This document shows positions 4,157 through 35,827 of a DNA stretch of 39,162 nucleotides, piece by piece; the first letter of the stretch is position 1; each line of letters opens with the position of its first letter. A program made the position numbers and the translations under genes. The stretch covers positions 1 through 39,162 of IMG/VR virus record IMGVR_UViG_3300010885_014667, one strand, 5' to 3'. The stretch is from a virus. The notes under the pieces are model-generated. The model worked only from the letters and a program-made list of their open reading frames with translations, ran no database searches and had not been told where the DNA came from.

Positions 4157-4166
4157 AGGATAAATT

Positions 4167-5075
4167 ATGCCAACAACAAACGTAGTCAGTTCCGGTTTAG
4201 CAACTATTGCTCCAGAAATAGCACCGTATTATACGGGTACAGGTACTGCAGGAACCGGGTTATTACCTAAAGCACAAGAGATATATTCCAAAGACTATGC
4301 AACGTCAGTGGGGAATCAACTAAATGCTTCTGGTTTAGGCGGTGCAGGACGTGTTGCTGGAATGAGTGACATTGAAAAACAAGTCGGTACAGATTTAATG
4401 GGGTTAGAAACTCCTGGGCAGTTTGGTATAGGCACAAATGCAGTCCAGTCAGGTATTGGTACTTTGCAAGGGTTTACTGATCCAAGCCAAGTGCAAAGCT
4501 ATATGTCTCCATATATTCAAAACGTAATGGATGTAAATAAAGCTGAAGCTTTGCGTGATGCTCAAAAACAATTAGTTGGCGCTAACTTAGCTTCTTCTCG
4601 TCAAGGTACTTATGGCGGTGCTCGTAATGCGTTAATGCAATCTGAAGCTGACCGTAATCTACAAACTAAGATGGGCGCTATCCAAGCAACAGGTATGCAG
4701 TCGGCATATGATGCTGCTACTAAAAATATGCTTGCTCAAGCTCAAGGCTATAACCAATTAGGTGCTACTGCTGGACAACTAGGCACTCAAGAACAAGCAA
4801 CAGATTTAAGTAGACTTGGTGCTCAAAGTGCTCAAGGTGGTTTAGAGCGTTCTATTGAACAGCAGGGTATTGACGCACGTTATCAAGATTTGTTACAACA
4901 GATTAACTATCCAAAAGAACAACTCGCTGGTATGCAGGGTATCCTTACAGGCGTTCCAACTGCAAGTACTCAGTCTACCCAAACAACTACAACCCCACCA
5001 CCAAGTTTGGCAAGTCAATTAACTGGCGCTGGTATGTCTGGTTTGGCTCTTTACAATACGTTTAAAGGTGTATAA
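4167..5075 (+). CDS. Putative internal virion / DNA-ejection protein
   Basis: This 302-residue protein is rich in Gln, Ala, Gly and Ser. Helical Gln-rich segments (around LRDAQKQLVGANLASSRQG and DRNLQTKMGAIQATGMQSA) span residues 125-260, and a Thr/Pro-rich linker precedes a hydrophobic C-terminus (SLASQLTGAGMSGLALYNTF). This composition is common in small phage proteins that sit inside the head and help form the DNA-delivery channel. The start follows an AAAGGA ribosome site with 6-nt spacing. The role is inferred from composition and neighbours. Confidence 0.65.
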   Translation: MPTTNVVSSGLATIAPEIAPYYTGTGTAGTGLLPKAQEIYSKDYATSVGNQLNASGLGGAGRVAGMSDIEKQVGTDLMGLETPGQFGIGTNAVQSGIGTLQGFTDPSQVQSYMSPYIQNVMDVNKAEALRDAQKQLVGANLASSRQGTYGGARNALMQSEADRNLQTKMGAIQATGMQSAYDAATKNMLAQAQGYNQLGATAGQLGTQEQATDLSRLGAQSAQGGLERSIEQQGIDARYQDLLQQINYPKEQLAGMQGILTGVPTASTQSTQTTTTPPPSLASQLTGAGMSGLALYNTFKGV

Positions 5076-5078
5076 CTT

Positions 5079-6503
5079 ATGAGCATCATTAACGCCCTAA
5101 AACAACATAATGGTTCTATTGATGAACTAGCTAAATTGCCGCAAAACCTGATTATGCAGATGGCTCAGCGTAAAGAAATTGGTCCTGAGTTAGTTGCTCC
5201 TATTCTTGCACGTAAAGCACAAATGGCAGATGCGATTGCTCGTACTAAAGCATTGCAAAAAGGACAAGCGCAAGGCCCAACACCGACTGTTATGGAACAG
5301 TTAATGCAGAAAACTGCCGATGCCGAGCAGCCTGCACCACAACCACAAGAGATGGGCATTGCTTCTAATCCGATTCCTGAGCGTAACTATGCTGGCGGTG
5401 GGATTGTTGCATTTGCTGAAGCAGGACCTGTAGAAGATAAAAACTTACCTGAGCAGCTGCCTGGTGAGTCTGATAACGCCTATATGCAACGTGTACAAGC
5501 GATTACTGGTGCTGGTAAACAATTCTTTACCCCAAGAAACTACAATCCACTAGCTAAAATTGGGGATTTGTATGATATGTACCAACAAAATGTTGGTCAG
5601 CCTTTTGCTGAAGGTGTAAAACGCTTTGTAAATGAAAGCCCTGAATCACAAGCGGCTAAGTTTAATGCTGGGGCAAACGCCCGTAAAGCTGTGGGCACTC
5701 CTGCTACTACTGCACCAGCGCTTCCTCCAATGCCTACTGGGGTTAAATTAGATGATAAAGGTAGAGCTGATGCCGCCAAACAAGACGGTAAAGCTTCTGC
5801 TGCTCCCACTGCAGACAATAAACCTGCTGGGATTAAATCACTTCCCGTTACTAAACCACCACTAGAACAAGCAGGCCCTCCACAACCTAGCGAGTTACAA
5901 CAAGTATTAGCTCAGTACCGCAGTGACATTGAAGGTAGCAAGGATGAGAAAGAAAAAGCACGTAAAGAAGCTATGTGGAGCCGTTTATTAGAAGCAGGTC
6001 TTAATGTTATGGGTGGTCAGTCATCTAACTTTGCTCAGAATTTGGCACTAGCTGGTCCTGCTGCTAAAGGGTTTGGTGAAGATATTAAAGGCTTACGTGC
6101 TGAAGAAACAGCTAGACGCAAACAACTTGCTGAGTTGGGTATTAAAGGTTATGAACTTGGTCAAGGCGCTAAGAAACAAGCTGCTGAAGAAGCATACATG
6201 AAACAGCATGGCAAGTATTTCGAACAAGCTGGTCAAGCATCTCTTATTGCCGCTAATCGTCCTACCGCTGGTGCATATGGTGCAGAGAAAGTAGATATTG
6301 CGGCGCTTAATGTTGGTCTTAATAACGCACAAAAAGCTTTGTTAACTGCTAAAAAAGCCGACCGCCCTGCTATTCAACAACAAATTGACGCCTATATTAA
6401 TCGTATTAATCAACTAGCTGGTGTTGGTGGTGCTCCCCCTGCAGCTTCAGCATCAGGCGCTTTTAACTATGTTCCTGGAAAAGGCTTAGTTCCGGTACAA
6501 TAG
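5079..6503 (+). CDS. Putative internal virion protein with AGGGIVAF motif
   Basis: This 474-residue protein begins three bases after the previous stop codon, with AAAGG about 8 nt before the ATG. Residues 1-70 are helical. The motif RNYAGGGIVAFAEAG near residue 105 is a Gly-rich block I associate with structural genes of freshwater phages. The middle is rich in Ala, Pro and Lys, and residues 280-420 look alpha-helical and charged (SDIEGSKDEKEKARKEAMW). No enzyme motif is seen. Together with the flanking genes it probably builds the ejected internal complex. Confidence 0.65.
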   Translation: MSIINALKQHNGSIDELAKLPQNLIMQMAQRKEIGPELVAPILARKAQMADAIARTKALQKGQAQGPTPTVMEQLMQKTADAEQPAPQPQEMGIASNPIPERNYAGGGIVAFAEAGPVEDKNLPEQLPGESDNAYMQRVQAITGAGKQFFTPRNYNPLAKIGDLYDMYQQNVGQPFAEGVKRFVNESPESQAAKFNAGANARKAVGTPATTAPALPPMPTGVKLDDKGRADAAKQDGKASAAPTADNKPAGIKSLPVTKPPLEQAGPPQPSELQQVLAQYRSDIEGSKDEKEKARKEAMWSRLLEAGLNVMGGQSSNFAQNLALAGPAAKGFGEDIKGLRAEETARRKQLAELGIKGYELGQGAKKQAAEEAYMKQHGKYFEQAGQASLIAANRPTAGAYGAEKVDIAALNVGLNNAQKALLTAKKADRPAIQQQIDAYINRINQLAGVGGAPPAASASGAFNYVPGKGLVPVQ

Positions 6504-6526
6504 CAATAACTATTTAAGGGTGCTGT

Positions 6527-9500
6527 GTGCCGATAATTAACATACCTAACATAGGGCAGGTAAACTTTCCTGACACCATGTCTCAAGCGGATATTGTTTC
6601 CGCCATTGAAAACGACATCTTAAAAAAACCGGGGCGTGCCCCAGAAGATGTTGGTTTCCTAGAAGGCACTAAAGCTGCTATTGGGCGTGGTATTGAGTCA
6701 TTAGGTGACGTAGCATCAGGTCTTGGTTTAGCTAAAACAGCTATTACTGGCACAGAAGCCCAAACAAAAGCCAAGATGGAAGCTATTAAAGCTGACCAAC
6801 AAAAACCTGAAGCAGCGCCCGGCATGACTGTTGAAGACTTCCAGCGTATCTATAAAGATAAAGGCATACTTGCTGCTGCTAAAGAAGTGCCTAAATACAT
6901 CTCAGAACAAGTCTTACAATCCGTCCCACAGATGGCAGGTCCTTTAGCTGTCGGTGCTGCAGCTTCACCGTTTATAACCCCATTTGGCGGTGCGTTGGCG
7001 GGTATGGCTACTTATGGTGTACAGCAATTTGGTAACTTCTTAGTGCGTCAAGCCCAAGAAAAGAAAGACCCTAAAGAATTAGAATTAACTAAGGCTGCTT
7101 TGACTGCAGCGGGCACTGCGCCGATTGGGTATTTTGCAGATAGATTTACTGCTGGCTTAGGTGGTTCGTCTAAAAAGGTTGGAGAGCAAATCCTTAAAGA
7201 GTTATCTGCACGTCAGGTAGCGGGTGAAGTTGGTAAAGGAGTTATTGGTGGTGCTACTCGGGGTATTATTGCTGAATCTCCAACAGAGGTATTAGAACAA
7301 GCTGCTGAGCGCTATCAGGCTGGATTAAGTCTTACTGGCCCTGAAGCCATGAGCGAGTATAAGAACGCATTTTTTGGAGCCGCTGCCGCTGGTGGTGGTA
7401 TTGGTGGTGTATCAGGAGGGATACGAGGCTATGCAGATACAAGAACTCAACCTATCATTGAACCAGATCAGTCGGGCATTTCGGGTGTTGGTGCACAAAG
7501 AGAAGCTCCCGGAGGAATTAGAACAGCTGACCAAACAGGACTGGACTTTTCTAGCGAACGCCCTGAGGAGCCTCTTGGAAGAGAAGCAGAACTCAATACT
7601 CCATTAACTGCTCCTCCTGCGGCTACTGACTTTTCCCAAATTGACCAAGCTATTGAGGCTCCAAAACAAACTGAAGAAGAAGTGGCGGCTAGGGCTTTTC
7701 AAAATAGTCAAAAAGCAGAGCAGATAAAGCAAATACAAGCAAAACTAAATGAAGTAGATGCTTATATCAGAGACTTATCAGAAGTTAACCCAGACGATGA
7801 GCGTATTGCCGATGCAGTAGACTACGCTAAAAGAATAAGCCAACAAGCAGAGCGCTTGCAAGCAGAAGTTATAGCACCACAAAAGGTAACCGCACTCAAT
7901 GCTCCAGAACAACAAGGGTTTGACTTTGCCCCCGCAGATGAAAATACCCAACGTAGTTTAGATATTGCCCCTACTGAGTTTGGTTTGACTGCCCCTGAAG
8001 GCAAGGTAGATACCTCTACTGAACTTACGCCTATTGAAGTTCCTAAGTATGAGACAAGCAAGTTTATGTTTGTCACGCCTAATGCTGACCCATTCAAAGG
8101 TTTAAATACTTTCTTTAATAGCGTTAAACCAGCTGCAGTTAGCGAATCTGAAGCAAAAGCACATCAAGCTGAAGTTAGAAAACTACAAGAAGCTATTACT
8201 GAGTTCCAACAAGACGCAGTCGGCAAAGACCGTGCTGGGCGTATTAATACTATACGTAATTTCTTTGACCAATTTAATATTGCTCCTGTTGAAAAACAAA
8301 ACGAAATAGCTAGATTACCCCAAGTTATGCCAGGTATGGATGCGCAGACTCAACAACAAGTGCTATCTGAAATATCTCAGTTGCCCAATATAAATACCGT
8401 ACGCGGTATGAAAGAATTAAATAGTCGTTTAGATACGGCTATGGCTGACTATTCCGAAGCTAAACTGGGTCGGTCTAGGGAAAATGCTATCTTGCCTTGG
8501 CAAGACCATGAAGATGTAAGCACAAAAACCGATGCCGACGCACTTAGAAGACTGGATAATATCTCTGAGAAGTTTAAGACTCCTGAGGAAAAAGCTGCGT
8601 CTACCTATTTAACTGCCCACGCCGACTATGACAAACCTTTTGCTTCTGCTATCCGTGCGGCTGCATTTGATTTAGGTGCGGAACAAGGGCCAGTATTTAG
8701 ATCACAAGATAAAGCAACGGCACAATTATTTAGAAATTGGGCGGGTAAAAATCTAGCCCCAATGAGCATAGCTAAGTTTGACGCTACTATTAATGAGTTC
8801 CGCCAAATGGGTGAGAAGATTAGTAAGCGCAAATTAGAAGATGAAGACATTGCTAGTGGCAAAAAAGTAGGGTGGGGTGCATGGTCTAAAGGTAACCCAA
8901 AAATTATGCACCCGTCAGTAGAAACCCGTATAGCTAATAACGATTTGCCTGGTGCTCTTCGTGCATTAAGCCGACTAGGTACTGAGTTCCAAAAAGGTTT
9001 AGCTAAGCAGTTAATGAAGCTAGACTTAAAAACTTCTATCGGTGTCGGTAAACAAGAAGACTTTGCTAAGTATATGGTTGAGCAAAATGCTGGCCCTGAG
9101 ATGACACAAATAATGATGATGTTGTCAGAGTCCTTTCCGTCGGTATTCCAAGAGCACTTCCGCAATCTAGACGATGTTAGAGCAACATATAAAGCATTGA
9201 CAGATTTAAAAGCAGGGCGTTTAGGTGTAGATCGTAAGACCTTAGAGGCATATACTGGACAACTTAAAGAAGCAACTGAAGCGTATCAAGCAGCTATTGC
9301 CGTATTAGATTCTCGTGGTACTTACATGCCGTCTTTGGATGCTATCAATATCAATCGGGATAGGGGCGGGAATACTACTGCTACTTTCCTACACGAAGTA
9401 CTACACGCTGCAACGCATTGGGCACTTGACCCAGCTAACTATGACTTACTTGACGCCAACCAAAAACAAGCAGTAGATGAACTTAAGCGTATGTACAACA

Positions 9501-12500
9501 CAGCTAAAGGCTTTTTACAGTTTGGCAATGAAATTAGTAGCATTGATGAGTTTGTTGTAGAGGCATATACCAACCCAGAGTTCCAGCGTTTCTTAAAAGA
9601 TGTGCCTGTGGTGAACACAAAACAGACTTTATGGGGCAAATTTACTCAGTTAATATCTAAACTGTTTGGTTTGAACAATATGCTTGGCTACACTTTAGCT
9701 AATGCAAACGACATTTTTATGGCTCCCCCAGAGACATCAAAAGAAGCCCGCGCTCTAAACTTACAAGGCAAACTTGGTGGATATATTCTTGAGGATAGCT
9801 ATCGTGCTGGCCCTGAAACTCGATCATTAACAGATAAAATGTTTGGTGAACGTGGTGATTGGGATGGGGTTAAAGATGCCATACCTTCGTTTTTATCAGG
9901 ATTAAAAGACTCTACCCGTAAACACTTCCTTGGTGCTCTAACCTTGCGTCAGATTGAAGACGTAGTCGGTCCTCGTGTTCCTCCGTTTAAAGAGTTTATT
10001 AACCGCATGGAGTTCATGCTTGATGACCGAAATGCAACCTTAAATAAGACTAAAGATATTGTTAAGCCTTGGATGAAATGGCAAAGTGCTAACCCTAAAA
10101 AGGGCAAAATTCTTAATGAATTAATGCTAGATGCTACTCGTATGGGTATTGACCCTGATATTAATACTAGTGATGAGATTCTTAATCGTGCTTGGAATGA
10201 TATAGGCACCGACGGTCAAAAGATTTACCGCCAAGTACGTGACTTTTACGCTAACCAAATGAAAGACCACATTCAAGTTCTTTTGGATAGAAAAGCTACT
10301 GCATTAAAAGCAGATGGTATCAGTGAAAATGTAATCAAAAATCATCCTGAATACATAGCCTTAAAAGAACATTTTAGTAAGCATTCTATTCAGCCGTATT
10401 TTCCTATTCGTCGTTTTGGTCAATATTGGTTACAAATTGGTAAAGGTAAGACTAAAGAGTTTTACACCTTTGAGTCTGCTCGTGAACGTAATGCTTTCCA
10501 AAAGAAACGTGAACGGGAACTAAATAAGCAAGGCTCTACAGCCCAAGTATCCGCTGGTAACTCTATTAAGCAGATGGTTAACGATAACTTACAAGACTTT
10601 GAGTTCTTGGCAAAGTTAAAAGGTCTTGTTGCTAGAGAAACAGGCGGTACTCGTAAAGAACTTAAAGATAACATTACCGACGCTATTGAGCAGATGTATC
10701 TGATGACGTTGCCTGACCAAAGTATTCGCAAGATGTTCTTAAACCGTCAGGGCATCCAAGGTATGAACAAAGATATGCTTCGTGCTTTTACAGCGTCGGC
10801 GTTCCGCATTGCCTACCAACAGTCTAGATTTAAGCACAGCGATAGCTTGTATGGTGCAGTTGATGCCGCTGAGTCTTATATTGAGGGTATGGATACCCAA
10901 GAACGCAAAGTATATACTGACTATATACGTGAGTTAGAAGGCCGCCTCCAGTACATTATGAACCCGCCAGACACAGGGGCAATTCCTTCGTTCTTGTCTA
11001 ACGTGTCTTTCGTTTGGTACATGACTTCTCCAGCTTCAGCTTTAGTTAACATGCTCGGTGTTCCAGCAGTAGGTATCCCTGTAGTCGGTGCTAGGTTTGG
11101 GATTGGCAAAACATCTGCCATGATGACTTCCTACGCTAGAAAATTTATGAGCGCAGGGTTTAAAGACCCAAAAGGGAACTGGTCATTTCCGTCTTTTACA
11201 AACAAACCAGACATGTTTAATGAAAGACAAAAAGCCGCTTTTGAACAGTTTATTGCCGATGGACTAATTGACATTACTCTTACACACGACATCGTTGGCT
11301 TAGCTGAGACTAACTCTAATTTATATACAGGGCGCACTCAGAAGGTTATGGGTGTATTGTCTGCAGCTTTCCACGGCGCTGAGAAGTTTAACCGTGAAGT
11401 AGTAGCTATGTCGTCTTATGATCTGGCTTACGAGCGTGCTAAGGCAAATGGATTAAGTGATGACGCTGCACAGAAAAAAGCCATTGATGAGGCTAAAGAA
11501 CTTACATACAAGTCAATGTTTGACTATTCTACACTTAACAAGCCACGCTATTTCCAGCCAGCTTACGCTAAAGTGTTCTTGCAGTTTAAGCAGTTCTCTC
11601 AGCAGATGACGTATATGCTTGCTCGTAGCGCCTATGAAGGGTTCTATAAGAAGTTTGATGCTAATGAGCTGCAAGATATTGGCACACAGATTAATACTAC
11701 CCGCACTACCGACGGTCAACCTGCTTTAGAAGGCCCTGCTTTAGACGCAGCAGTTAAGCAATATATTAAGGACTTCCGTGCCGAAGGTAAAAAACGCCTC
11801 ATGGGTACGCTCGGTGCTACATTCTTATTTGCTGGAGCTACGGGTTTACCCGGATGGTCTGCTTTATCTGCATTGATGGAAATGCTACAAACTCTATTTG
11901 CTGATGAAGATGAAGAAGACCAACCATTTGATTTTGACAACTGGTTTAAGAATTGGACTAATGAAACCTTTGGAGGCATGTTTGGGGAATCTATAGGTAA
12001 TTTTGTTGGAGAGTCTGTTTCTCGTGGGGTTGTAACTCAAGCATCTGGGGTTAACTTAGCTGATCGTATGGGATTAGATAGCATGTGGTTCCGTGATAAC
12101 CGTCAGAGCGCAGATGAAGTTAGTGCCGTAGAAGCTACATTAGTTAGCCTTATGGGACCAGCGGTAGGCTTAGCAGTTACTGGGGCTAATGCACTTAAAC
12201 AATTAAATGACGGTCATTTAGGTCGTGCTATTGAGACTGCCACACCTGCTGTTATTAAGAACGCCCTTAAAGGTACACGTTTGAGTTCAGAAGGTGCGTT
12301 AACTCTTAGTGGGGACATTCTTATCGAAGACTTTAGTGCGGCTGAAATAGGCGCACAGGCTCTTGGTTTCTCCCCAGAACGCTTAGCCCAACGTCAAAAG
12401 TCTAATATTGAAACTAAAGGTGCTGAGCAAGAGATTATTAAGAAGCACCAAGACCTTCTCAATGCGTTCTTTATGTCGGTTGATACTGGTGATGATGACA

Positions 12501-12700
12501 TGCGGGAACGAGTTATTGACAAGATTAGTAGGTTTAATAGGTCTAACCCTGGCGACGCAATCACACCTGAAGCACTAGTAGCCTCTATTAATCGCCGTTA
12601 TGAGCAGCGTGCACTGGCTCAACAGACTGGTGGCGTAAACATTAACAAGAAACTTATTGGTCAACTTGGCGAGATGGGTAACTACGGTAACCCTGATTAA
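6527..12700 (+). CDS. Giant multidomain virion protein with HExxH metallopeptidase motif
   Basis: This 2057-residue protein is read from a GTG preceded by TAAGGG. The first residues (PIINIPNIGQVNFPDTMSQ) are a typical opening of very large phage ejection or polyvalent proteins. Hydrophobic segments occur near residues 132-165, about 1490-1530 and about 1760-1790, as expected of a protein that crosses the host envelope. A zinc-peptidase signature HEVLH lies at residues 956-960, with H964 and acidic residues E1008 and E1012 (IDEFVVEAYT) as possible further ligands. The region FDYSTLNKPRYFQPAY then FLQFKQFSQQMTYML resembles large polyvalent protein-associated domains. It ends the late gene string, directly before the leftward terminator. 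The peptidase could act on the wall, a host protein or the virion itself; the sequence does not say which. Confidence 0.8.
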   Translation: MPIINIPNIGQVNFPDTMSQADIVSAIENDILKKPGRAPEDVGFLEGTKAAIGRGIESLGDVASGLGLAKTAITGTEAQTKAKMEAIKADQQKPEAAPGMTVEDFQRIYKDKGILAAAKEVPKYISEQVLQSVPQMAGPLAVGAAASPFITPFGGALAGMATYGVQQFGNFLVRQAQEKKDPKELELTKAALTAAGTAPIGYFADRFTAGLGGSSKKVGEQILKELSARQVAGEVGKGVIGGATRGIIAESPTEVLEQAAERYQAGLSLTGPEAMSEYKNAFFGAAAAGGGIGGVSGGIRGYADTRTQPIIEPDQSGISGVGAQREAPGGIRTADQTGLDFSSERPEEPLGREAELNTPLTAPPAATDFSQIDQAIEAPKQTEEEVAARAFQNSQKAEQIKQIQAKLNEVDAYIRDLSEVNPDDERIADAVDYAKRISQQAERLQAEVIAPQKVTALNAPEQQGFDFAPADENTQRSLDIAPTEFGLTAPEGKVDTSTELTPIEVPKYETSKFMFVTPNADPFKGLNTFFNSVKPAAVSESEAKAHQAEVRKLQEAITEFQQDAVGKDRAGRINTIRNFFDQFNIAPVEKQNEIARLPQVMPGMDAQTQQQVLSEISQLPNINTVRGMKELNSRLDTAMADYSEAKLGRSRENAILPWQDHEDVSTKTDADALRRLDNISEKFKTPEEKAASTYLTAHADYDKPFASAIRAAAFDLGAEQGPVFRSQDKATAQLFRNWAGKNLAPMSIAKFDATINEFRQMGEKISKRKLEDEDIASGKKVGWGAWSKGNPKIMHPSVETRIANNDLPGALRALSRLGTEFQKGLAKQLMKLDLKTSIGVGKQEDFAKYMVEQNAGPEMTQIMMMLSESFPSVFQEHFRNLDDVRATYKALTDLKAGRLGVDRKTLEAYTGQLKEATEAYQAAIAVLDSRGTYMPSLDAININRDRGGNTTATFLHEVLHAATHWALDPANYDLLDANQKQAVDELKRMYNTAKGFLQFGNEISSIDEFVVEAYTNPEFQRFLKDVPVVNTKQTLWGKFTQLISKLFGLNNMLGYTLANANDIFMAPPETSKEARALNLQGKLGGYILEDSYRAGPETRSLTDKMFGERGDWDGVKDAIPSFLSGLKDSTRKHFLGALTLRQIEDVVGPRVPPFKEFINRMEFMLDDRNATLNKTKDIVKPWMKWQSANPKKGKILNELMLDATRMGIDPDINTSDEILNRAWNDIGTDGQKIYRQVRDFYANQMKDHIQVLLDRKATALKADGISENVIKNHPEYIALKEHFSKHSIQPYFPIRRFGQYWLQIGKGKTKEFYTFESARERNAFQKKRERELNKQGSTAQVSAGNSIKQMVNDNLQDFEFLAKLKGLVARETGGTRKELKDNITDAIEQMYLMTLPDQSIRKMFLNRQGIQGMNKDMLRAFTASAFRIAYQQSRFKHSDSLYGAVDAAESYIEGMDTQERKVYTDYIRELEGRLQYIMNPPDTGAIPSFLSNVSFVWYMTSPASALVNMLGVPAVGIPVVGARFGIGKTSAMMTSYARKFMSAGFKDPKGNWSFPSFTNKPDMFNERQKAAFEQFIADGLIDITLTHDIVGLAETNSNLYTGRTQKVMGVLSAAFHGAEKFNREVVAMSSYDLAYERAKANGLSDDAAQKKAIDEAKELTYKSMFDYSTLNKPRYFQPAYAKVFLQFKQFSQQMTYMLARSAYEGFYKKFDANELQDIGTQINTTRTTDGQPALEGPALDAAVKQYIKDFRAEGKKRLMGTLGATFLFAGATGLPGWSALSALMEMLQTLFADEDEEDQPFDFDNWFKNWTNETFGGMFGESIGNFVGESVSRGVVTQASGVNLADRMGLDSMWFRDNRQSADEVSAVEATLVSLMGPAVGLAVTGANALKQLNDGHLGRAIETATPAVIKNALKGTRLSSEGALTLSGDILIEDFSAAEIGAQALGFSPERLAQRQKSNIETKGAEQEIIKKHQDLLNAFFMSVDTGDDDMRERVIDKISRFNRSNPGDAITPEALVASINRRYEQRALAQQTGGVNINKKLIGQLGEMGNYGNPD

Positions 12701-25155: not shown

Positions 25156-25180
25156 ACATTCAGACGCTATGTCTGAATGT
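25156..25180. repeat. Inverted repeat copy 1 (ACATTCAGAC family)
   Basis: Perfect 10-bp arms ACATTCAGAC/GTCTGAATGT around GCTAT. It lies directly upstream of promoter P1 and downstream of the terminator at 25191-25210 as read leftward. It is the best-preserved copy of the family and the only one next to a clear promoter. Confidence 0.85.
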
Positions 25181-25190
25181 GGCAATAAAA

Positions 25191-25210
25191 AAGCCACCCG
25201 AAGGTGGCTT
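25191..25210 (-). terminator. Rho-independent terminator of the upstream leftward block
   Basis: The stem AAGCCACC/GGTGGCTT closes a CGAA loop (UUCG on the minus strand) and is followed by six U residues in leftward transcripts. It ends the block that begins at 35769, about 170 nt beyond the stop codon at 25379. Confidence 0.85.
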
Positions 25211-25378: not shown

Positions 25379-26251
25379 TCAGGGAGCAATAAAAAACATA
25401 CCATCTTTAAACTTGCACCCTATATGGCTATACCCCTCGCCTTCAGACAATACTTTAAACATAGCAAACTTCTCCTGAATAGCCGTAGGCAGATCATCGT
25501 AGTGTTTATAGTGCGTAATACTATCCTGTTCTAGAGAATATAAAACAAGACTACTGTCGGCTTTGACATTGATGCCGTAGCCTAGCTTAGCATCAAACGC
25601 AGTCTTCAAATCGTTCCAATTCTTATATATCTCACATTTGATATTGTGCTTTTTTATATCTTTATTAACTAAACTAAAAAAGGTAGATGACATAGAGATT
25701 GTTGGTTCTCCCCTAAGCCGTGCCTCATACCCAAGCATAGCCATAAGTGAAATCTCGTCATCAACACTAAAGTCCCACCGCACCTGATTCTTATGGCTAT
25801 TGTGCATTGACGATATGTTATCTCGGATACTTTTACCGATTAACTCTTTTAACTCGTCGTCTAGTCTAGAAACAAGTGTCTTCTTTGCAACGCGTAAAGC
25901 TACCTTCATATCTTTGGCTTGCACAGCCTCACGATTACCCCTTTCTTTACGAATACGAAAGCTTTGGACTTCATAGACAGGTTCAGAACTACCACCACGA
26001 TACCGAGTAGTAACTCCGATAGCACCCACTTCCTCACCATTCTCTACAACTTTAATGCGACGAATAAATCTACTAGTCGTTACCGTCGTTCCGTTGCCCG
26101 AGTTTTTCCGTACTTCAATAGTGCAATCGTTGTCGACAATAAAGTCATACAGAGGTTTAGCTTTATACAATGCCTGTGCAAACCCCTCTAGACCATCAAT
26201 ATAGGGAGCGTCTTTGTACTCTTGCTTTAAGTTTGATTTATTTATGTTCAT
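25379..26251 (-). CDS. Unknown phage protein next to the DUF3150-like gene
   Basis: This 290-residue basic protein is not recognised. The first third is beta-like (CTIEVRKNSGNGTTVTTSRF, then VYEVQSFRIRKERGNRE). The middle is helical (VALRVAKKTLVSRLDDELKEL) and the end is compact (HIGCKFKDGMFFIAP). AAGGGAAG lies just before the ATG, which follows the DUF3150-like gene by 9 nt. It is therefore the last gene of the ATPase/VWA block before the terminator. Its position suggests a partner of that set. Confidence 0.7.
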   Translation of the reverse strand: MNINKSNLKQEYKDAPYIDGLEGFAQALYKAKPLYDFIVDNDCTIEVRKNSGNGTTVTTSRFIRRIKVVENGEEVGAIGVTTRYRGGSSEPVYEVQSFRIRKERGNREAVQAKDMKVALRVAKKTLVSRLDDELKELIGKSIRDNISSMHNSHKNQVRWDFSVDDEISLMAMLGYEARLRGEPTISMSSTFFSLVNKDIKKHNIKCEIYKNWNDLKTAFDAKLGYGINVKADSSLVLYSLEQDSITHYKHYDDLPTAIQEKFAMFKVLSEGEGYSHIGCKFKDGMFFIAP

Positions 26252-26260
26252 ATACTTCCC

Positions 26261-27130
26261 TTAAAAGTTAAACTTAGACAGAATGTCATCAACCTTAGCC
26301 TTGACTGTTTCTCTAGCAACAAAGCTTTCTCTGAGGTCGTCGGCATCATGGTTATTAATAGCGTTCTCCAACTCGGTGCGTGCCTGTTCCATGTTAGCGT
26401 CTTTGGTAAGGTTAAAGTGTTTAAGCAGCGACGTTAACTCCACAGCATTCTCTACTAGGGAGTCCCTAAATATTTTCTTCTCACCTTTCTCGTTGTCAGC
26501 CAGCCTTTCACTCATACGCATGAGGCACTCATGTAACCTAGTCCACGCATCTTTCATAGCGTTGTTAAGTCGCTCGTTGTAGATACCTTCGCATGACGCA
26601 ATGATCTCAGCCTTAGCTTCTTCACCAATGTCAACTCGGAAATCCCCCGCCATCGGCACAGGCAAGTAGTTCACATTAAACTTAAACTTTCTCGCAATGG
26701 TGTCGGCTTCGGGATACTCTGACCTATCGAACAACTCGCCCAACTGAAAAGCGGCGGCACTCACTAGGTTAGGATATGCAATGATGAACTTATCCACTAA
26801 TGCCATGTAGTTCTTCTCAAGCGTAGCCAACTGCGACTTATAGGTTAAGAAGTTACTCATCGGCAGTAATCGTAGTCCGTTGTCTGACCAAGGTAATGTT
26901 TGAGATAAGTGCCATGCTCTAGCCGTTGCCGCATACTTTGTTATGGTGTCAAGAAACCCTGTACCCGCTAAGAGGTTCTTGTTGTAGTTACCCGCACGAG
27001 TCTTCGTGCCCTTATCAAAGTCTACTTGCGTAGATACCTTCTTATCCAGTTTTCTAGCAGTCCATGTGCTTATGGACATCTCTACTAACATAGCTGATGA
27101 TGCGATTGAGATACTGTTGTCTTGTTGCAT
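26261..27130 (-). CDS. DUF3150-like protein, partner of the ATPase/VWA pair
   Basis: Read from the ATG at 27130, with a GAAAGGAATTACC ribosome-site sequence, this protein has 289 residues. It is mostly helical, with blocks SISTWTARKLDKKVS, LPWSDNGLRLLP, YPNLVSAAAFQLGELFDRSEYP and a charged helical C-terminus (LENAINNHDADDLRES). The pattern fits DUF3150, a family seen beside CobS-like ATPases and VWA proteins in phages and plasmids. Its role is not established. It may be the substrate or adaptor of that ATPase. Palindrome copy 2 lies 23 nt upstream. The DUF assignment is moderately sure. Confidence 0.65.
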   Translation of the reverse strand: MQQDNSISIASSAMLVEMSISTWTARKLDKKVSTQVDFDKGTKTRAGNYNKNLLAGTGFLDTITKYAATARAWHLSQTLPWSDNGLRLLPMSNFLTYKSQLATLEKNYMALVDKFIIAYPNLVSAAAFQLGELFDRSEYPEADTIARKFKFNVNYLPVPMAGDFRVDIGEEAKAEIIASCEGIYNERLNNAMKDAWTRLHECLMRMSERLADNEKGEKKIFRDSLVENAVELTSLLKHFNLTKDANMEQARTELENAINNHDADDLRESFVARETVKAKVDDILSKFNF

Positions 27131-27152
27131 GGTAATTCCTTTCGATTGTTGT

Positions 27153-27185
27153 GGCAACATTCAGACACGATGACTGAATGTTGCC
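27153..27185. repeat. Inverted repeat copy 2
   Basis: Perfect 12-bp arms GGCAACATTCAG/CTGAATGTTGCC around 9 nt. It fills the gap between the VWA gene (stop 8 nt away) and the start of the DUF3150-like gene. It has no U-run, so it is not an ordinary terminator. Confidence 0.85.
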
Positions 27186-27192
27186 GTTGGGT

Positions 27193-28422
27193 TTACTCTA
27201 CATGAACTACTTTACCTACTACTGAATTACTATCAAAGCGGGAGTTGCCTTTGATGCACCACATGACGGGAGAGTTAATCACACCCCACGCAGATATATC
27301 CGAATCAATATACCCGTCGGTTAACATGATCACGCACTCAGGTTCAAGTGTTTCCTTTTGCATAAACTTAGGCACGCAGTCAGGATTAGTTCCACCACCA
27401 CCCTTAGGCTTAGTCGATTCGGTTAACCCCATCAGTTCACTACCTTGATACACCTCATGCGATGCAACCCGAGTATCCCAATACAACAGATCAATCTTCT
27501 CGGGACTTACTTCTTCGCAGATGCACTTCACCTCGCTAAGAAACTGAGAGAGTTCTTCTACACCAATAGAGCCTGATGTATCAATACCTACTAATATAGA
27601 ACCAACCTTCTCGTCGTAGCTTGACGGCATAATAATATCCATGCTGATGTATCGCTTGTGAAGACGCTTCCATGTTGTTTGGTCTTTACCTTGCGTGGTA
27701 GTTTTAACAAAGTCACGCAACGCTTCTTTCCAATCAACCTTAGGAGTGAGTAAGTCATGTAGTTCTCTAGAAACATCTCCGCCTAGCTTACCCGCTAAGA
27801 TTGCCCCTTGACGCAATGCTTTCTCGACCTCGTTAGTGATCTCGTCTTTTTCCTCTTGGGACATTTCTTTTGCCCCTTCCCAATCGTGCGAATCAAACCC
27901 CTCGCCAGTTCCCTCTCCTTCTTCGCCACCATCACCGCTACCACCACCCCCACCGCCACCACCATGTTCTTCTTTAAGAAGTCTAAAGATTTGAGCCGCA
28001 TCCATACCCCGATACTTCTCGTCAATCAAGCCCATGATTTCACCTTCCTCATCAACAGGCATTTCAGTATCGTGCCCATGCGGGTCGTAGTCACGGATTT
28101 GTAGATTGATAACATAGTCACAAGCGGCATTTGCCAAGCGTGGGTTTTCCTTCGCAAGCTTTTCCCATACAGTTAAGTGACGATAAGCCTTGTGCATATT
28201 CTCATGCAATATTAAGAAAGCAAGTGCCTTGTCAGTTAACCTATTGATAAACTTGCGACCATAGACAACATCAACACCATTAGTCTTAGCCGTTGGCTCA
28301 TCGTCAGATACCGATACCTTGCCTACCATAAACAAACCCGAGAACATGCAAAAGTTCTTGTGCTTCATTAACTGCACATGGGTGCGTTCAATGCGTTGTT
28401 CTGCTGATAACTTGCTCATCAT
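27193..28422 (-). CDS. VWA-like protein with N-terminal metallopeptidase-like domain
   Basis: This 409-residue protein resembles the DUF2201-type pairing of a putative metallopeptidase domain with a VWA-like domain. Residues 65-110 carry ILHENMHKAYRH with HExxH at 73-77, then ANAACDYVIN (possible third ligand D102). A Gly-rich linker (154-175) follows. The VWA fold from about 270 has a complete MIDAS metal site: DTSGS at 281-285, T345 in GGGGTNPD and D369 in MLTDG. Such proteins pair with MoxR-type ATPases, encoded here by the AAA+ gene at 29652. ATG codons at 28422 and 28419 are both possible. The substrate is unknown. Confidence 0.85.
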   Translation of the reverse strand: MMSKLSAEQRIERTHVQLMKHKNFCMFSGLFMVGKVSVSDDEPTAKTNGVDVVYGRKFINRLTDKALAFLILHENMHKAYRHLTVWEKLAKENPRLANAACDYVINLQIRDYDPHGHDTEMPVDEEGEIMGLIDEKYRGMDAAQIFRLLKEEHGGGGGGGGSGDGGEEGEGTGEGFDSHDWEGAKEMSQEEKDEITNEVEKALRQGAILAGKLGGDVSRELHDLLTPKVDWKEALRDFVKTTTQGKDQTTWKRLHKRYISMDIIMPSSYDEKVGSILVGIDTSGSIGVEELSQFLSEVKCICEEVSPEKIDLLYWDTRVASHEVYQGSELMGLTESTKPKGGGGTNPDCVPKFMQKETLEPECVIMLTDGYIDSDISAWGVINSPVMWCIKGNSRFDSNSVVGKVVHVE

Positions 28423-28651
28423 TTTCTTCCTTTTCTAAGTTTTTAATTCCATCTTCAAATACTTCAACCGCTTGACTAAACAAACGCAACAACTCAACCC
28501 CTGTCATGTTTGCCTGAGTAAGTGCCGTTGATACCAACATAGATACAAGGACAGATAAAACTACCTCGATCTCTATATTTTCTTGGGTAAATAAATCCCC
28601 CACCTTATCCGCTAACTTCTCGGCTTTGATTTGTATATCTGTTTGTTTCAT
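28388..28651 (-). CDS. Small helical protein between regulator and VWA gene
   Basis: This 87-residue protein has a hydrophobic helix (IEVVLSVLVSMLVSTALTQA) at about residues 28-47 and a charged tail rich in Glu. Its start overlaps the upstream stop by 4 nt and its end overlaps the VWA gene by 35 nt. It may be membrane-associated. The function is unknown. Confidence 0.65.
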   Translation of the reverse strand: MKQTDIQIKAEKLADKVGDLFTQENIEIEVVLSVLVSMLVSTALTQANMTGVELLRLFSQAVEVFEDGIKNLEKEENDEQVISRTTH

Positions 28652-28836
28652 GTACCTATCTCCTTCTTTCGTTTAGTTAAATACTTAGTGACACTACTAG
28701 CTACCACACGGCGATGACCCCCTCGGGTAATGAAGAACTTAAACTCACCCTCGTCTATCATCTTTTGAACTGTGCCTAATGATAGGCAGATAGCTTTTGC
28801 CACCTCCCTTGAAGTCATAAAGATTTCTTGTTTCAT
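28648..28836 (-). CDS. Excisionase/MerR-like DNA-binding protein
   Basis: This 62-residue protein matches the short winged-helix pattern of excisionase and MerR-type binders: MTSREVAKAICLSLGTVQKM, then FFITRGGHRRV. There is no integrase in the window, so it is more likely a small regulator than a true excisionase. A strong GAGGAGGAAG ribosome site overlaps the end of the upstream gene. It is a candidate for binding the repeated palindromes near this operon, by inference only. Confidence 0.8.
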   Translation of the reverse strand: MKQEIFMTSREVAKAICLSLGTVQKMIDEGEFKFFITRGGHRRVVASSVTKYLTKRKKEIGT

Positions 28837-29165
28837 ACTTCCTCCTCATCTAGCCAGTCGTACCAATCTGTGCCTACTACCCACTCTTCCTTAAAATCCC
28901 CCGAGGAATACAAAGCACTTGCCACATTGAACATCGTGTCAATCAACTGATCTTTACGAACTAATGTCCACTCCTCGGAGAAAAACCCATCAAAGTTTTT
29001 CTGTGCTTCTTCCCATACTTTATCCCAAGTAGTATCCCAGTCAGTCATGTCATACTCACCTACATAGTGACCAGCATCTTGCTCAGTACCAAGGGCATAC
29101 CATTTAATCTTGCCGTTGTCATGGGGTATCCCACTTTCTTCTTTCCAGTTTTTCATATCGTTCAT
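28833..29165 (-). CDS. Acidic Trp-rich unknown protein
   Basis: This protein of about 110 residues is very acidic and rich in Trp and Asp (EYDMTDWDTTWDKVWEEAQ, then VVGTDWYDWLDEEEV). AGGAG is 6 nt from the ATG at 29165, and the ATG at 29168 is the alternative. It is not recognised. Its charge resembles DNA-mimic or inhibitor proteins, but that is only a compositional remark. Confidence 0.65.
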   Translation of the reverse strand: MNDMKNWKEESGIPHDNGKIKWYALGTEQDAGHYVGEYDMTDWDTTWDKVWEEAQKNFDGFFSEEWTLVRKDQLIDTMFNVASALYSSGDFKEEWVVGTDWYDWLDEEEV

Positions 29166-29175
29166 CATCTACTCC

Positions 29176-29430
29176 TTATTTATAACGCATCATTGGACAA
29201 TCGGGAACACTAAAGCGAATCTTAGGCATACGCATACGAGCCGTATCTAACATATACTCGTTCAACCCACTTCTCAAACGATTAAGCCGTCTATCCATCT
29301 TGGCATAGCAACTAGCCCTTAAGCGTTTCAGCTTACGACCTTTCGGTCTTTTGTCAGGGTGTCGCATACTGTAATTGATGTAGGCTATCTTCTCTTTACG
29401 AACTCCCACTCCAGCTAATCTTCTAGTCAT
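29176..29430 (-). CDS. Very basic small protein
   Basis: This 84-residue protein is rich in Arg and Lys (RPKGRKLKRLRASCYAKMDR, then LNRLRSGLNEYML). It starts at the ATG at 29430, which overlaps the upstream stop by 8 nt. The frame is open further upstream to 29466 but lacks a better start. It probably binds nucleic acid. The function is unknown. Confidence 0.6.
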   Translation of the reverse strand: MTRRLAGVGVRKEKIAYINYSMRHPDKRPKGRKLKRLRASCYAKMDRRLNRLRSGLNEYMLDTARMRMPKIRFSVPDCPMMRYK

Positions 29431-29641
29431 AATTTTTTCCTGTTCGATCAAAATATTCATCGGCATACTCAGTTACATCTTTCTTAAAATTCTCAATCGT
29501 ATACTTCTCGTTGATTAAGTCCGTTAGTAAATCCAAGAAAGAGTCGGCATCTAAGTTATCACTACCCACCCAATCTTCTACCATTGATTTTGTTATGCCC
29601 CCGTGATACTCAGGGTTTTGAGTAAACAATCCATCTTTCAT
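29423..29641 (-). CDS. Small acidic unknown protein
   Basis: This 72-residue protein (MKDGLFTQNPEYHGGITKSM, then DADSFLDLLTDLINEKYTIE) is acidic and mostly helical. AAGGAGAAATAA precedes its ATG, which lies 10 nt after the AAA+ gene's stop. The function is unknown. Confidence 0.65.
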   Translation of the reverse strand: MKDGLFTQNPEYHGGITKSMVEDWVGSDNLDADSFLDLLTDLINEKYTIENFKKDVTEYADEYFDRTGKNYD

Positions 29642-29651
29642 TTATTTCTCC

Positions 29652-30746
29652 TTAAAATAAGTATTGGTTTTCACGCATCCAAGTTACGAACGATTGGCTA
29701 GTAAGGAATAACTTTTTCTTCTCGTCATTCTTCATACCAGTCAAGCAGAACACAGACTGCAATTCTTTAGGTGTCCGCTTGAGATACTCAAAGAACTTAC
29801 TGATAGTCGTGCGGTCTACCCGCTGAACTGCACTAAAAGCTAGTAAGCACAAAGCGGCGGGTGAGGCGGGGACTTTAGCGTTGTTGGGGTCTTTGCAGAT
29901 TTCGTCCCAAGTCGGAAGCGAGTCGGCGACTTCAACATAAGCCATAAGGTCACGGGCTGCGGGTGCACCGATAGTCCCTTCTAAAGCACAAAGCGTTGCG
30001 TTAGTTGTTACACCTGCCCTGCTCTTAAGAATACTCGATGCTCTAGCAAGGGATCGTGGCGAAACAAAAGACTTCTGTGCTTCCTTAGGGTTAAAGATAT
30101 ACTTGTTACCCGCCTGTCCACCATCAAGGTAAGACGCTAATGCTTGCGGTGTTTCTTTAATCCATACTAGAACCTCAGGTGCGATGTCATTCTCGACAGC
30201 CCATGCACCCCAAGAGTCAGAGTCAATAGAGCCATCACCATTAAATCCCGCCGTAGGTTTCTTCACATTCACAACAGAGATACGATTACGGCTATGTGCC
30301 ATCATGTTATCGCCAACACCATCGCCTGTGTAGTTACCCGCCGTTACGACAATATCTTCGGGGTGTAGTGGGATACCCATAATCATGCGTGGTTCGTTAA
30401 GCATAGGGTGTAACATATTCTTTACTGCGTTGTGTGCTTTCGTAAACTCGTCAATGAAGATAACCTTCGGCTCATCAAGATGGAAACCCCATTGCTCATT
30501 AGGGTAAATACGGGTGGTCTTGGTGCTATGGTCAGGGATTGGAATACCTAGTTCGCCCAGTTCAATATTCGGTGCGTCAATATAGATACCTTTAAAGCCT
30601 GTGCGTTTAACTATGTTCTTAAACATAGAGGTTTTGCCTACCCCCGGCTCACCCATAAGGTGAACTGTTCCGCTAGAACCAAGTGATATAACTAAGTCCT
30701 CGGCTTCTTTGAGGGTGGCGGTGCGATTTAAGAATACTTCTGACAT
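29652..30746 (-). CDS. MoxR/CobS-like AAA+ ATPase
   Basis: This 364-residue ATPase starts at the ATG at 30746, after a GAAAGGATTTACC ribosome-site sequence; a TTG at 30761 is also in frame. Walker A GEPGVGKTS lies at 32-40, Walker B VIFIDEFTKA at 95-104, sensor 1 TAGN at 135-138 and an arginine-finger-like HSRNRI at 151-156. The order and the DEF box resemble MoxR/CobS-type AAA+ proteins, which remodel targets together with VWA partners. A VWA gene lies about 1.2 kb downstream in the same operon. Palindrome copy 3 lies 32 nt before the start. Target and role in infection are unknown. Confidence 0.85.
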   Translation of the reverse strand: MSEVFLNRTATLKEAEDLVISLGSSGTVHLMGEPGVGKTSMFKNIVKRTGFKGIYIDAPNIELGELGIPIPDHSTKTTRIYPNEQWGFHLDEPKVIFIDEFTKAHNAVKNMLHPMLNEPRMIMGIPLHPEDIVVTAGNYTGDGVGDNMMAHSRNRISVVNVKKPTAGFNGDGSIDSDSWGAWAVENDIAPEVLVWIKETPQALASYLDGGQAGNKYIFNPKEAQKSFVSPRSLARASSILKSRAGVTTNATLCALEGTIGAPAARDLMAYVEVADSLPTWDEICKDPNNAKVPASPAALCLLAFSAVQRVDRTTISKFFEYLKRTPKELQSVFCLTGMKNDEKKKLFLTSQSFVTWMRENQYLF

Positions 30747-30777: not shown

Positions 30778-30804
30778 CACATTCAGACACTATGTCCGAT
30801 TGTG
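30778..30804. repeat. Inverted repeat copy 3 (imperfect)
   Basis: Left arm ACATTCAGAC, spacer ACTAT, right arm GTCCGATTGT, with two mismatches to the perfect arm. It lies in the gap between the stop at 30813 and the start of the AAA+ gene. Confidence 0.75.
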
Positions 30805-30812
30805 GGTGCTAC

Positions 30813-31757
30813 TTATTGCCGAAAATACTTGGCGTTCCTATCAAAAAAGTGATACCCGATAGGCATAGGTACTACTACAAATGCTTCTTCTTTAAACTGA
30901 TACTTCAGTATTTCTGCAAATGCCTTGGCAAACTGAGAATTTGTAATGCGACCCTTGTAATCCCCAAACGCATGACCAATCCGCATGACTGCGTCGTAGG
31001 CTAACTCCAAATCCCCAGATTGGTTAAACTCATCTAGTTGTTTAAAAAGGTGTGTTCTGTTCTTAATGCACTTGTCATTACTCCAATGACTCCAAGTTAA
31101 GCCACTATCTGACCAAGTTCTACCGCTGACTTCTATCTTAGGGTCGATCAATAGCATGTTGCACCCATACTCGAGGAACTTCTTATACTTTCTGCGTAGT
31201 GCGTTAAGTGCCTTGCGGTTAGCGTTATACTTAAACTCTTGCACAGGGTTGACCACAGTAAAGGCGTTCATCATGCCCCCGTTAGTCTGAACCATGTTGC
31301 CCGTCGGCTCAAAACGCAGTCGGCGTTTATCTTCTGAGTCAAGGTAGTAGTCCATGCCATCAGCGTAGTTGCGGAAATACCATTTGCCGTCGAGTGAAGT
31401 GAATGTCCCAAGGCGGTTTTGAAGCGTGTAATTTATGAAGCTTTGCGTGGTCGGACTCCGATACCCGCCAGTTCCCACCTCAATAGAGCCATCATCGAAC
31501 CATTCAACACAGTCGGTGCGATATAACCTAGCGGTATAAGTCTCTTGCCATCTACCCAAAGGGTTACCCACTTCCTCGACAGACTTCATGTGCTTTACTA
31601 TGCGGTGATCTGCATAACGACGATTACTACCCAATGGACGCACATCTTCTTTACGCCCACGGATTGGCGTTGTATTTGCATACCAATCTTTTGCTTCTTT
31701 GAAACTACCGATAGGCTTTAAGCCTGCTGAATTACCAAATCCCCAAGTCATGGTCAT
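30813..31757 (-). CDS. Unknown phage protein upstream of the AAA+ ATPase
   Basis: This 314-residue protein is not recognised. It has aromatic-rich stretches (GKWYFRNYADGMDYYLDSED, then SGLTWSHWSNDKCIKNRTHL) and a basic helix (ALNALRRKYKKFLEYG). Its start overlaps the upstream stop by 4 nt (ATGA). Its position just before the ATPase gene makes it a candidate substrate or partner of that set, without direct evidence. Confidence 0.7.
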   Translation of the reverse strand: MTMTWGFGNSAGLKPIGSFKEAKDWYANTTPIRGRKEDVRPLGSNRRYADHRIVKHMKSVEEVGNPLGRWQETYTARLYRTDCVEWFDDGSIEVGTGGYRSPTTQSFINYTLQNRLGTFTSLDGKWYFRNYADGMDYYLDSEDKRRLRFEPTGNMVQTNGGMMNAFTVVNPVQEFKYNANRKALNALRRKYKKFLEYGCNMLLIDPKIEVSGRTWSDSGLTWSHWSNDKCIKNRTHLFKQLDEFNQSGDLELAYDAVMRIGHAFGDYKGRITNSQFAKAFAEILKYQFKEEAFVVVPMPIGYHFFDRNAKYFRQ

Positions 31758-32452: not shown

Positions 32453-32697
32453 TTGGTTACTCCACTTTCGGTCAGGTTGTCTGAATGTTCCACGCTTAAA
32501 AGGATAGTTATTGCCTCGTCCAGTTTTTTGCCGTAGATGCTTTTTAAATCAATGATGGTTTGAGCCGTCTTGTTGCGTAGCATGGCACTTGCCCCACCAG
32601 TTTTTACCTCAAAAAAGATACGAACCAAGGTCTCTTGGTCAGCCGTGCTATCTATCAGGTGTGCAATGTTCAGTTGCAGTTGTTTAAGTTTGCTCAT
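32449..32697 (-). CDS. Small helical unknown protein
   Basis: This 82-residue protein starts at the ATG at 32697, overlapping the upstream stop by 4 nt. The longer frame to 32775 would run over the upstream gene and reads as its shadow. It is helical (KLKQLQLNIAHLIDSTADQE, then AITILLSVEHSDNLTE). Its last codons contain palindrome copy 4. The function is unknown. Confidence 0.6.
   Translation of the reverse strand: MSKLKQLQLNIAHLIDSTADQETLVRIFFEVKTGGASAMLRNKTAQTIIDLKSIYGKKLDEAITILLSVEHSDNLTESGVTK
32464..32488. repeat. Inverted repeat copy 4, degenerate and inside a coding end
   Basis: Right arm GTCTGAATGT is intact (32479-32488). The left arm ACTTTCGGTC has three changes from ACATTCAGAC. 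Unlike the other copies it lies inside the last codons of a gene, where it encodes EHSDNLTESG. Confidence 0.6.
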
Positions 32698-34013: not shown

Positions 34014-34039
34014 ACATTCAGACGGGTATGACTGAATGT
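34014..34039. repeat. Inverted repeat copy 5
   Basis: Arms ACATTCAG/CTGAATGT pair over 8 bp; the spacer is 1 nt longer than in most copies. GGAACATT precedes the left arm. It lies 5 nt after the stop at 34045 and about 20 nt before the start at 33993. Confidence 0.8.
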
Positions 34040-34253: not shown

Positions 34254-34278
34254 ACATTCGGTCATCATGTCTGAATGT
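34254..34278. repeat. Inverted repeat copy 6
   Basis: Left arm ACATTCGGTC, spacer ATCAT, right arm GTCTGAATGT. GGAACATT begins the left arm. It lies 20 nt upstream of the gene starting at 34233 and at the left edge of the large non-coding stretch. Confidence 0.8.
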
Positions 34279-34861
34279 GGTTGGGTTGGGGTATCTCTAA
34301 AACATTTTTCATTCTATACATCTATTATACTCCTATTACTATACAATGTCAAGTTTTTGTGGTATTAAGTTTTGGTGTGTGTTCTTGGGAGCTGAGGTAT
34401 GTAATGTTCCAAAAAGAGGGGTAATGTTCTATTTTGTTATTTTGGTTGGAACATTGCAAAAGCCTATAAGTTCGGGGGTTTGATGTTCGTTTTATATATA
34501 ATGTTCTAATGTTATATTGTTCTATCTTTTATATATCGAGGGATAATTTTTTAAGCAATATTTCACTATGTGCAATATTGCACTATGCGAAGGGGGTCTT
34601 TGCTTTTCGTTTTCCCCAAGTACCTAAAAAGTCGGAACATTAGGAACATTCCGTACAAAGCTTATTCTATATAGGTTTGTGTTGGAACATTGCTTGGAAC
34701 ATTCGGAACATTACAAACTGAGGCAACTGCGTTGGTTTAAGCTTCTGCGTTGCGATATGCCTGACCAGTTCTTTGACTTGCGGTGTTGACTTTGGGTTTT
34801 TGATTTTGACTTTTGGTTTTAAGAATTTTTGGGCGAAAAAAAAACCCCTTGCGGGGTTTGG
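34279..34861. other. Non-coding AT-rich region with GGAACATT iterons, candidate origin
   Basis: About 580 bases hold no supported gene. The word GGAACATT occurs six times on the plus strand (34448, 34634, 34643, 34684, 34696, 34705) and once reversed (34403-34410), with near matches AATGTTCT at 34423 and 34500. Three spacings are 9, 12 and 9 nt. AT-rich stretches lie at 34485-34560, followed by a repeat of GCAATATT around 34556-34581. Near the right end there are T/G-rich repeats (TTGACTTTGGG, TTGACTTTTGG). This pattern fits a replication origin or a regulator-binding cluster. Confidence 0.5.
34842..34859 (-). terminator. Rho-independent terminator after the small gene at 34862
   Basis: The stem AAACCCC/GGGGTTT closes TTGC, with a run of at least eight U residues after the hairpin in leftward transcripts. 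It lies only 2 nt after the stop codon and separates the two rightmost leftward genes from the rest of the operon. Confidence 0.85.
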
Positions 34862-35802: not shown

Positions 35803-35827
35803 ACATTCAGACAACATGACTGAATGT
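35803..35827. repeat. Inverted repeat copy 7
   Basis: Left arm ACATTCAGAC, spacer AACAT, right arm GACTGAATGT (one mismatch). It lies upstream of the first leftward gene, within its presumed leader or promoter region. Confidence 0.8.

Follow-up and report, generated by a model that had tools for sequence, protein, structure and literature searches.

The 39-kb viral record analysed here (the window, 39,162 nucleotides of a freshwater phage) carries on its minus strand the genes for a MoxR-like AAA+ ATPase, a VWA protein with an added HExxH domain, and a DUF3150-like helical protein (together, the trio), as well as flanking proteins of 290 and 314 residues (Table 1). The three trio genes are not contiguous, and the five small genes that separate the ATPase and VWA genes are poorly conserved and come and go among relatives. 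Profile searches with the two flanking proteins gave no family match above cut-off, in keeping with the original prediction, which had described both as unrecognised; both often stay with the trio.

Table 1. Genes and other features of the trio region in the window.
Feature	Coordinates	Strand	Remarks
Intrinsic hairpin terminator closing the unit	25191..25210	(-)	41 of the 41 testable relatives have one (0.05 expected)
290-aa protein, last gene of the unit	25379..26251	(-)	Present in 47/81 loci
DUF3150-like helical protein, 289 aa	26261..27130	(-)	26/45 relatives match PF11348; RBS and start
DUF2201 protein (PHROG 1314), N-terminal HExxH putative metallopeptidase and C-terminal MIDAS VWA domain	27193..28422	(-)	PF13203 and PF09967
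MoxR-like AAA+ ATPase (PHROG 1297), 364 aa	29652..30746	(-)	Pfam AAA and AAA_5 above cut-off
314-aa protein, upstream of the ATPase gene	30813..31757	(-)	Present in 57/81 loci
Sigma-70 consensus promoter of the unit, TTGACA-17-TATAAT	34324..34352	(-)	12/12 match
Palindrome between terminator and next (replication) unit	25156..25180	.	
Palindrome in DUF3150 leader	27157..27181	.	
Palindrome in ATPase leader	30779..30803	.	
Palindrome behind promoter of the trio unit	34254..34278	.	
Palindrome upstream of 226-aa gene	35803..35827	.	
Weaker palindrome copies	32464-32488 and 34014-34039		

A promoter matching at least 11 of the 12 consensus positions lies upstream of the ATPase gene in 39 of 50 relatives (4.5 expected; 5 on the other strand). 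Beyond the terminator, the next unit contains VRR nuclease, DNA polymerase and exonuclease genes, and the virion genes are on the strand opposite to the trio unit. The host-type promoter and the conserved terminator thus place the trio unit ahead of the replication genes; its organization is of an early type and would suit early work better than virion assembly. The neighbourhood with replication and recombination genes may simply reflect the clustering of early genes.

The gaps of the early region contain five copies, and two weaker ones, of a 25-bp palindrome (ACATTCAGAC-N5-GTCTGAATGT). Such a palindrome family is present in at least four copies at 39 of the loci searched (4–10 per locus, 255 copies in total), and a shuffled-sequence control gave no recurrent family. 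The copies lie a median of 24 bases before a start codon, with 31 preceding the ATPase gene and 26 the DUF3150 gene, and in related phages their position is kept while the sequence is private to each lineage. An RNA hairpin was considered and rejected: 372 deviations are seen in one arm and 17 are matched on the other, such that base pairing is not conserved. Because the deviations are mostly in a single arm, the palindrome fits a candidate site for a dimeric DNA-binding protein, and the copies together look like an operator set with turnover of specificity, reminiscent of phage stoperators. The 226-aa upstream gene was tried as the regulator and set aside, as it is widespread but no DNA-binding family was found in its product.

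The ATPase has its Walker A motif (GEPGVGKTS) at residues 32–40 and a Walker B segment at 95–104 with D99/E100, where the original prediction had placed them, and the Walker A and B motifs, sensor 1 Asn, Arg finger and sensor 2 Arg are invariant in its relatives. Comparison of its profile with solved structures gives the midasin AAA as the best match (2e-19), with NorQ also among the solved relatives. It has the AAA+ core motifs and a linked VWA gene with a MIDAS (DxSxS..T..D), as in MoxR-type ATPases, and scores 18.1 bits with the bpMoxR model, below the 27-bit cut-off.

The VWA protein matches PF13203 (DUF2201_N; E 5.5e-25) and PF09967 (DUF2201; E 1.1e-13), both above cut-off. In an alignment of 47 VWA proteins, with relatives at 44–80% identity to the window protein, the HExxHxxxxH, D..IN and MIDAS residues are invariant, so the HExxH and MIDAS sites originally described as intact prove to be so across this set. 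The retained HExxHxxxxH and NxAxDxxIN-type motifs include further conserved candidate metal ligands beside HExxH. Plasmid, N4-like, jumbo and cyanophage VWA proteins also contain these motifs and the MIDAS residues, with variable residues separating the MIDAS D, S and S, and a Methylophilaceae copy has Ser in place of the MIDAS Thr. A structure model of the window protein (pTM 0.54) is similar to several VWA folds, including NorD and the MIDAS domain of midasin. An HExxH motif by itself is no proof of peptidase activity; judged by its sequence, the domain is probably a metal protease. Many phage records name the DUF2201 protein (PHROG 1314) an 'HNH endonuclease', apparently a propagated mis-annotation, and we rejected this label for the window protein, in which Pfam finds just DUF2201_N and DUF2201.

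The window DUF3150 protein falls below the PF11348 cut-off (E 0.0043; 16.8 bits vs 24.9), and it is the family that carries the assignment, with 26 of 45 members matching at E<=0.1 and the best at 1e-6; the earlier DUF3150-like call was therefore right, though weak from the window protein alone. We corrected the start to the ATG at 27130, behind the ribosome binding site GAAAGGA, giving 289 rather than 299 residues. The predicted structure consists chiefly of long helices (pLDDT 86), its best structural match among viral proteins is another DUF3150 protein, and searches for solved relatives by sequence and by fold gave no convincing match. A search of 5.39 million papers, with most subscription journals outside its coverage, found none on DUF3150.

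The three-gene set turns up in hundreds of related phages, and on plasmids unrelated to them. Of 80 IMG/VR loci found via the VWA protein, 79 have DUF3150 and 78 the ATPase, and the three absences are at contig ends; every locus uncut by a contig end thus has both. Anchoring on DUF3150 gives 62 of 81 loci with all three genes, the remainder being cut by a contig end near the gene, although the two sets share contigs and are not independent. DUF3150 may follow the VWA gene, precede the ATPase gene or lie between the two, and because the order varies the linkage reflects more than a frozen arrangement. Synechococcus phage MinM2 also carries all three genes. The original prediction that these form one gene set, with the MoxR-type ATPase and VWA protein as a pair, is supported. 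Co-occurrence in related phages, the absence of which would have refuted it, is seen at all untruncated loci, with a MIDAS-containing VWA gene linked to the ATPase gene. It overlooked that the ATPase/VWA pair itself is already known (PMC7824862; PMC4193335; PMC7650795), that the trio also occurs on plasmids, and that DUF3150 is a regular member. No account of DUF3150 as the regular third partner of the pair, in phages and plasmids alike, turned up in the literature searched, in which subscription journals were mostly uncovered.

In jumbo phages a MoxR ATPase and metallopeptidase-vWA pair has been described and a virion role proposed (PMC7824862). This pair shares with the window the two-protein architecture, including fusion of an N-terminal peptidase domain to the VWA domain, but it lies near virion genes, and no DUF3150 was found near it in GAP32. 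N4 gp24/gp25 are a core pair of middle genes with no known function and are absent from the listed N4 virion proteins (PMC4193335). These and LIT1 gp33/gp35 (Schitoviridae core) are homologous ATPase and DUF2201 proteins whose genes lie upstream of those for helicase and DNA polymerase, and are transcribed by a phage RNA polymerase whereas the window unit has a host-type promoter. Examination of the LIT1, S-TIM66 and GAP32 flanks detected no DUF3150 beside the pair in these N4-like, cyanomyovirus and jumbo relatives, so the third member is not universal. Acinetobacter baumannii pRBH2-3, recorded as a plasmid, has a phage-type RNA polymerase gene adjoining an N4-like ATPase/VWA pair and may be an N4-like phage or phage-plasmid.

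Plasmid records with a DUF3150 relative have an adjacent VWA gene in 41 of 44 cases, and the trio ATPase is present in those regions that were read. The three exceptions are Manganitrophus plasmids; in the one read (3854-6876), another AAA ATPase gene is followed by DUF1257, DUF2997 and then DUF3150 with no adjoining VWA gene, so that DUF3150 possibly has other partners there. On the IncA plasmid pRA1, genes for a CbbQ-type ATPase, bet, exo, DUF3150 and then a VWA protein of the CobT-like kind (PF06213, 1e-8) form a cluster, which shares three component kinds with the window, including both HExxH and MIDAS, but differs in its CbbQ_C ATPase and CobT-like VWA protein. Trios of this second branch are often near bet/exo, and their sequence similarity to the window trio is remote and marginal. 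Among 369 genomes sampled from a single class, nine gammaproteobacterial ones have a Pfam DUF3150 match above cut-off, with a CobT-like HExxH VWA gene in the same stretch in all nine, an ATPase in eight and an exonuclease in six. Common descent of the whole trio across both branches is plausible. No IncA-type DUF3150 was found in viral contigs, and scanning genomes with the DUF3150 alignment recovered a single contig, from a Methylophilaceae MAG, carrying DUF3150, ATPase and VWA genes.

RavA-ViaA, NorQ-NorD, CbbQ-CbbO and midasin share with the window a MoxR-type AAA+ motor and a MIDAS co-factor; to our knowledge, none has an HExxH domain or a DUF3150 partner. Because the window ATPase and VWA proteins resemble midasin and NorQ/NorD, which are known pairs, a motor and co-factor reading is supported, and we give about even credence to the trio being an early-acting, ATP-driven remodelling machine of the MoxR-VWA kind, with probable proteolysis. 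We infer that the proteins would form a complex in which the AAA+ protein assembles into a hexameric motor, and the VWA co-factor would grip a client via its MIDAS metal and offer it both to the motor and to the HExxH peptidase domain that the co-factor itself carries, with DUF3150 serving the motor as a dedicated adaptor or assembly partner. Such a machine would act early, either ahead of DNA replication or while it is under way; its target would be a protein complex of the host or the phage, perhaps DNA-bound, and plasmids and integrative elements would use it during establishment or recombination of their DNA. A bolder reading, less likely than not, is that mobile elements carry here an undescribed machine of three components, with DUF3150 as the specific adaptor of an ATPase-driven metalloprotease that would serve early on to clear or rebuild a nucleoprotein complex, and that in these phages it would be under lineage-private dispersed operators at the ATPase and DUF3150 leaders.

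Of the three functions originally suggested, maturation of phage proteins is the least favoured, because the unit is of an early type and the plasmid carriers make no virions. An ATPase/VWA pair that folds and cleaves structural proteins, as a virion-assembly chaperone and processing protease, is accordingly unlikely, even though such a role has been suggested for jumbo phages of group 2.2, where the archaeal virus ATV served as precedent (PMC7824862). In GAP32 the pair has a head-completion gene in its vicinity, in S-TIM66 it is near or among virion genes, and roseophage RPP1 has a second structural module near gp24/25. Virions of phAPEC6 were found to contain the ATPase gp265c, which by synteny is probably of the trio type (PMC7247149); this and the jumbo-phage context keep a virion role plausible for the jumbo lineage. 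However, in the window's phage group the unit is of an early type and runs on the strand opposite the virion genes, the N4 homologues are middle genes missing from the listed virion proteins, and plasmids that produce no virions retain the trio, which argues against a virion role as the general one. A counter-defence device that disarms or degrades a host antiviral protein is a somewhat better but still improbable candidate. It would be useful to both phages and plasmids, which face the same defences and have the trio in common, and would suit an early-type unit whose neighbouring small genes vary among relatives as host-takeover genes do. Yet the trio is core rather than accessory in its lineages, including the N4 core genes, while counter-defence genes are usually patchy, and no convincing match was found in a library of known defence, as distinct from counter-defence, proteins.

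Ternary conflict systems with MoxR-vWA pairs at their core have also been described (PMC7159879), and the trio could be an exclusion or abortive system carried against competitors. We consider this very unlikely, as the third component of the window set is DUF3150, no ternary-system third component (VMAP, iSTAND, FtsH or beta-propeller) was recognised by Pfam among the flanking genes scanned, a hypervariable effector was not seen, and the ATPase lies below the bpMoxR cut-off. The chance that the trio is a CobS/CobT-like metal-insertion chaperone for a metabolic enzyme is slighter still; the CobT match of the pRA1 VWA protein and a weak match of the window ATPase to phage PHROG 249 ('porphyrin biosynthesis') point that way, but the window VWA protein belongs to DUF2201 and has HExxH conserved, the pRA1 ATPase is of the CbbQ/NorQ type, and no cobalamin gene was recognised among the window genes scanned.

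Returning to the early remodelling machine, plasmids and bacterial genomes carry a pair of this kind too, again with a regular third partner, which speaks against virion assembly as its original job and in favour of early work, whether DNA-related or in host takeover, for pairs of the N4 gp24/gp25 kind. With three genes, two metal sites and one motor, the trio is a compact, testable system.

Elsewhere in the record, a DNA search of the first 25 kb against phage records gave no near matches. A 2057-aa protein (6527-12700, plus strand), encoded where the block of structural genes ends, matches large DarB-like antirestriction PHROGs. An Rfam int-alpA RNA (RF02996; 15794-15867, minus strand; 43.2 bits) lies between a 949-aa primase/helicase-like gene and a 75-aa gene upstream of it.
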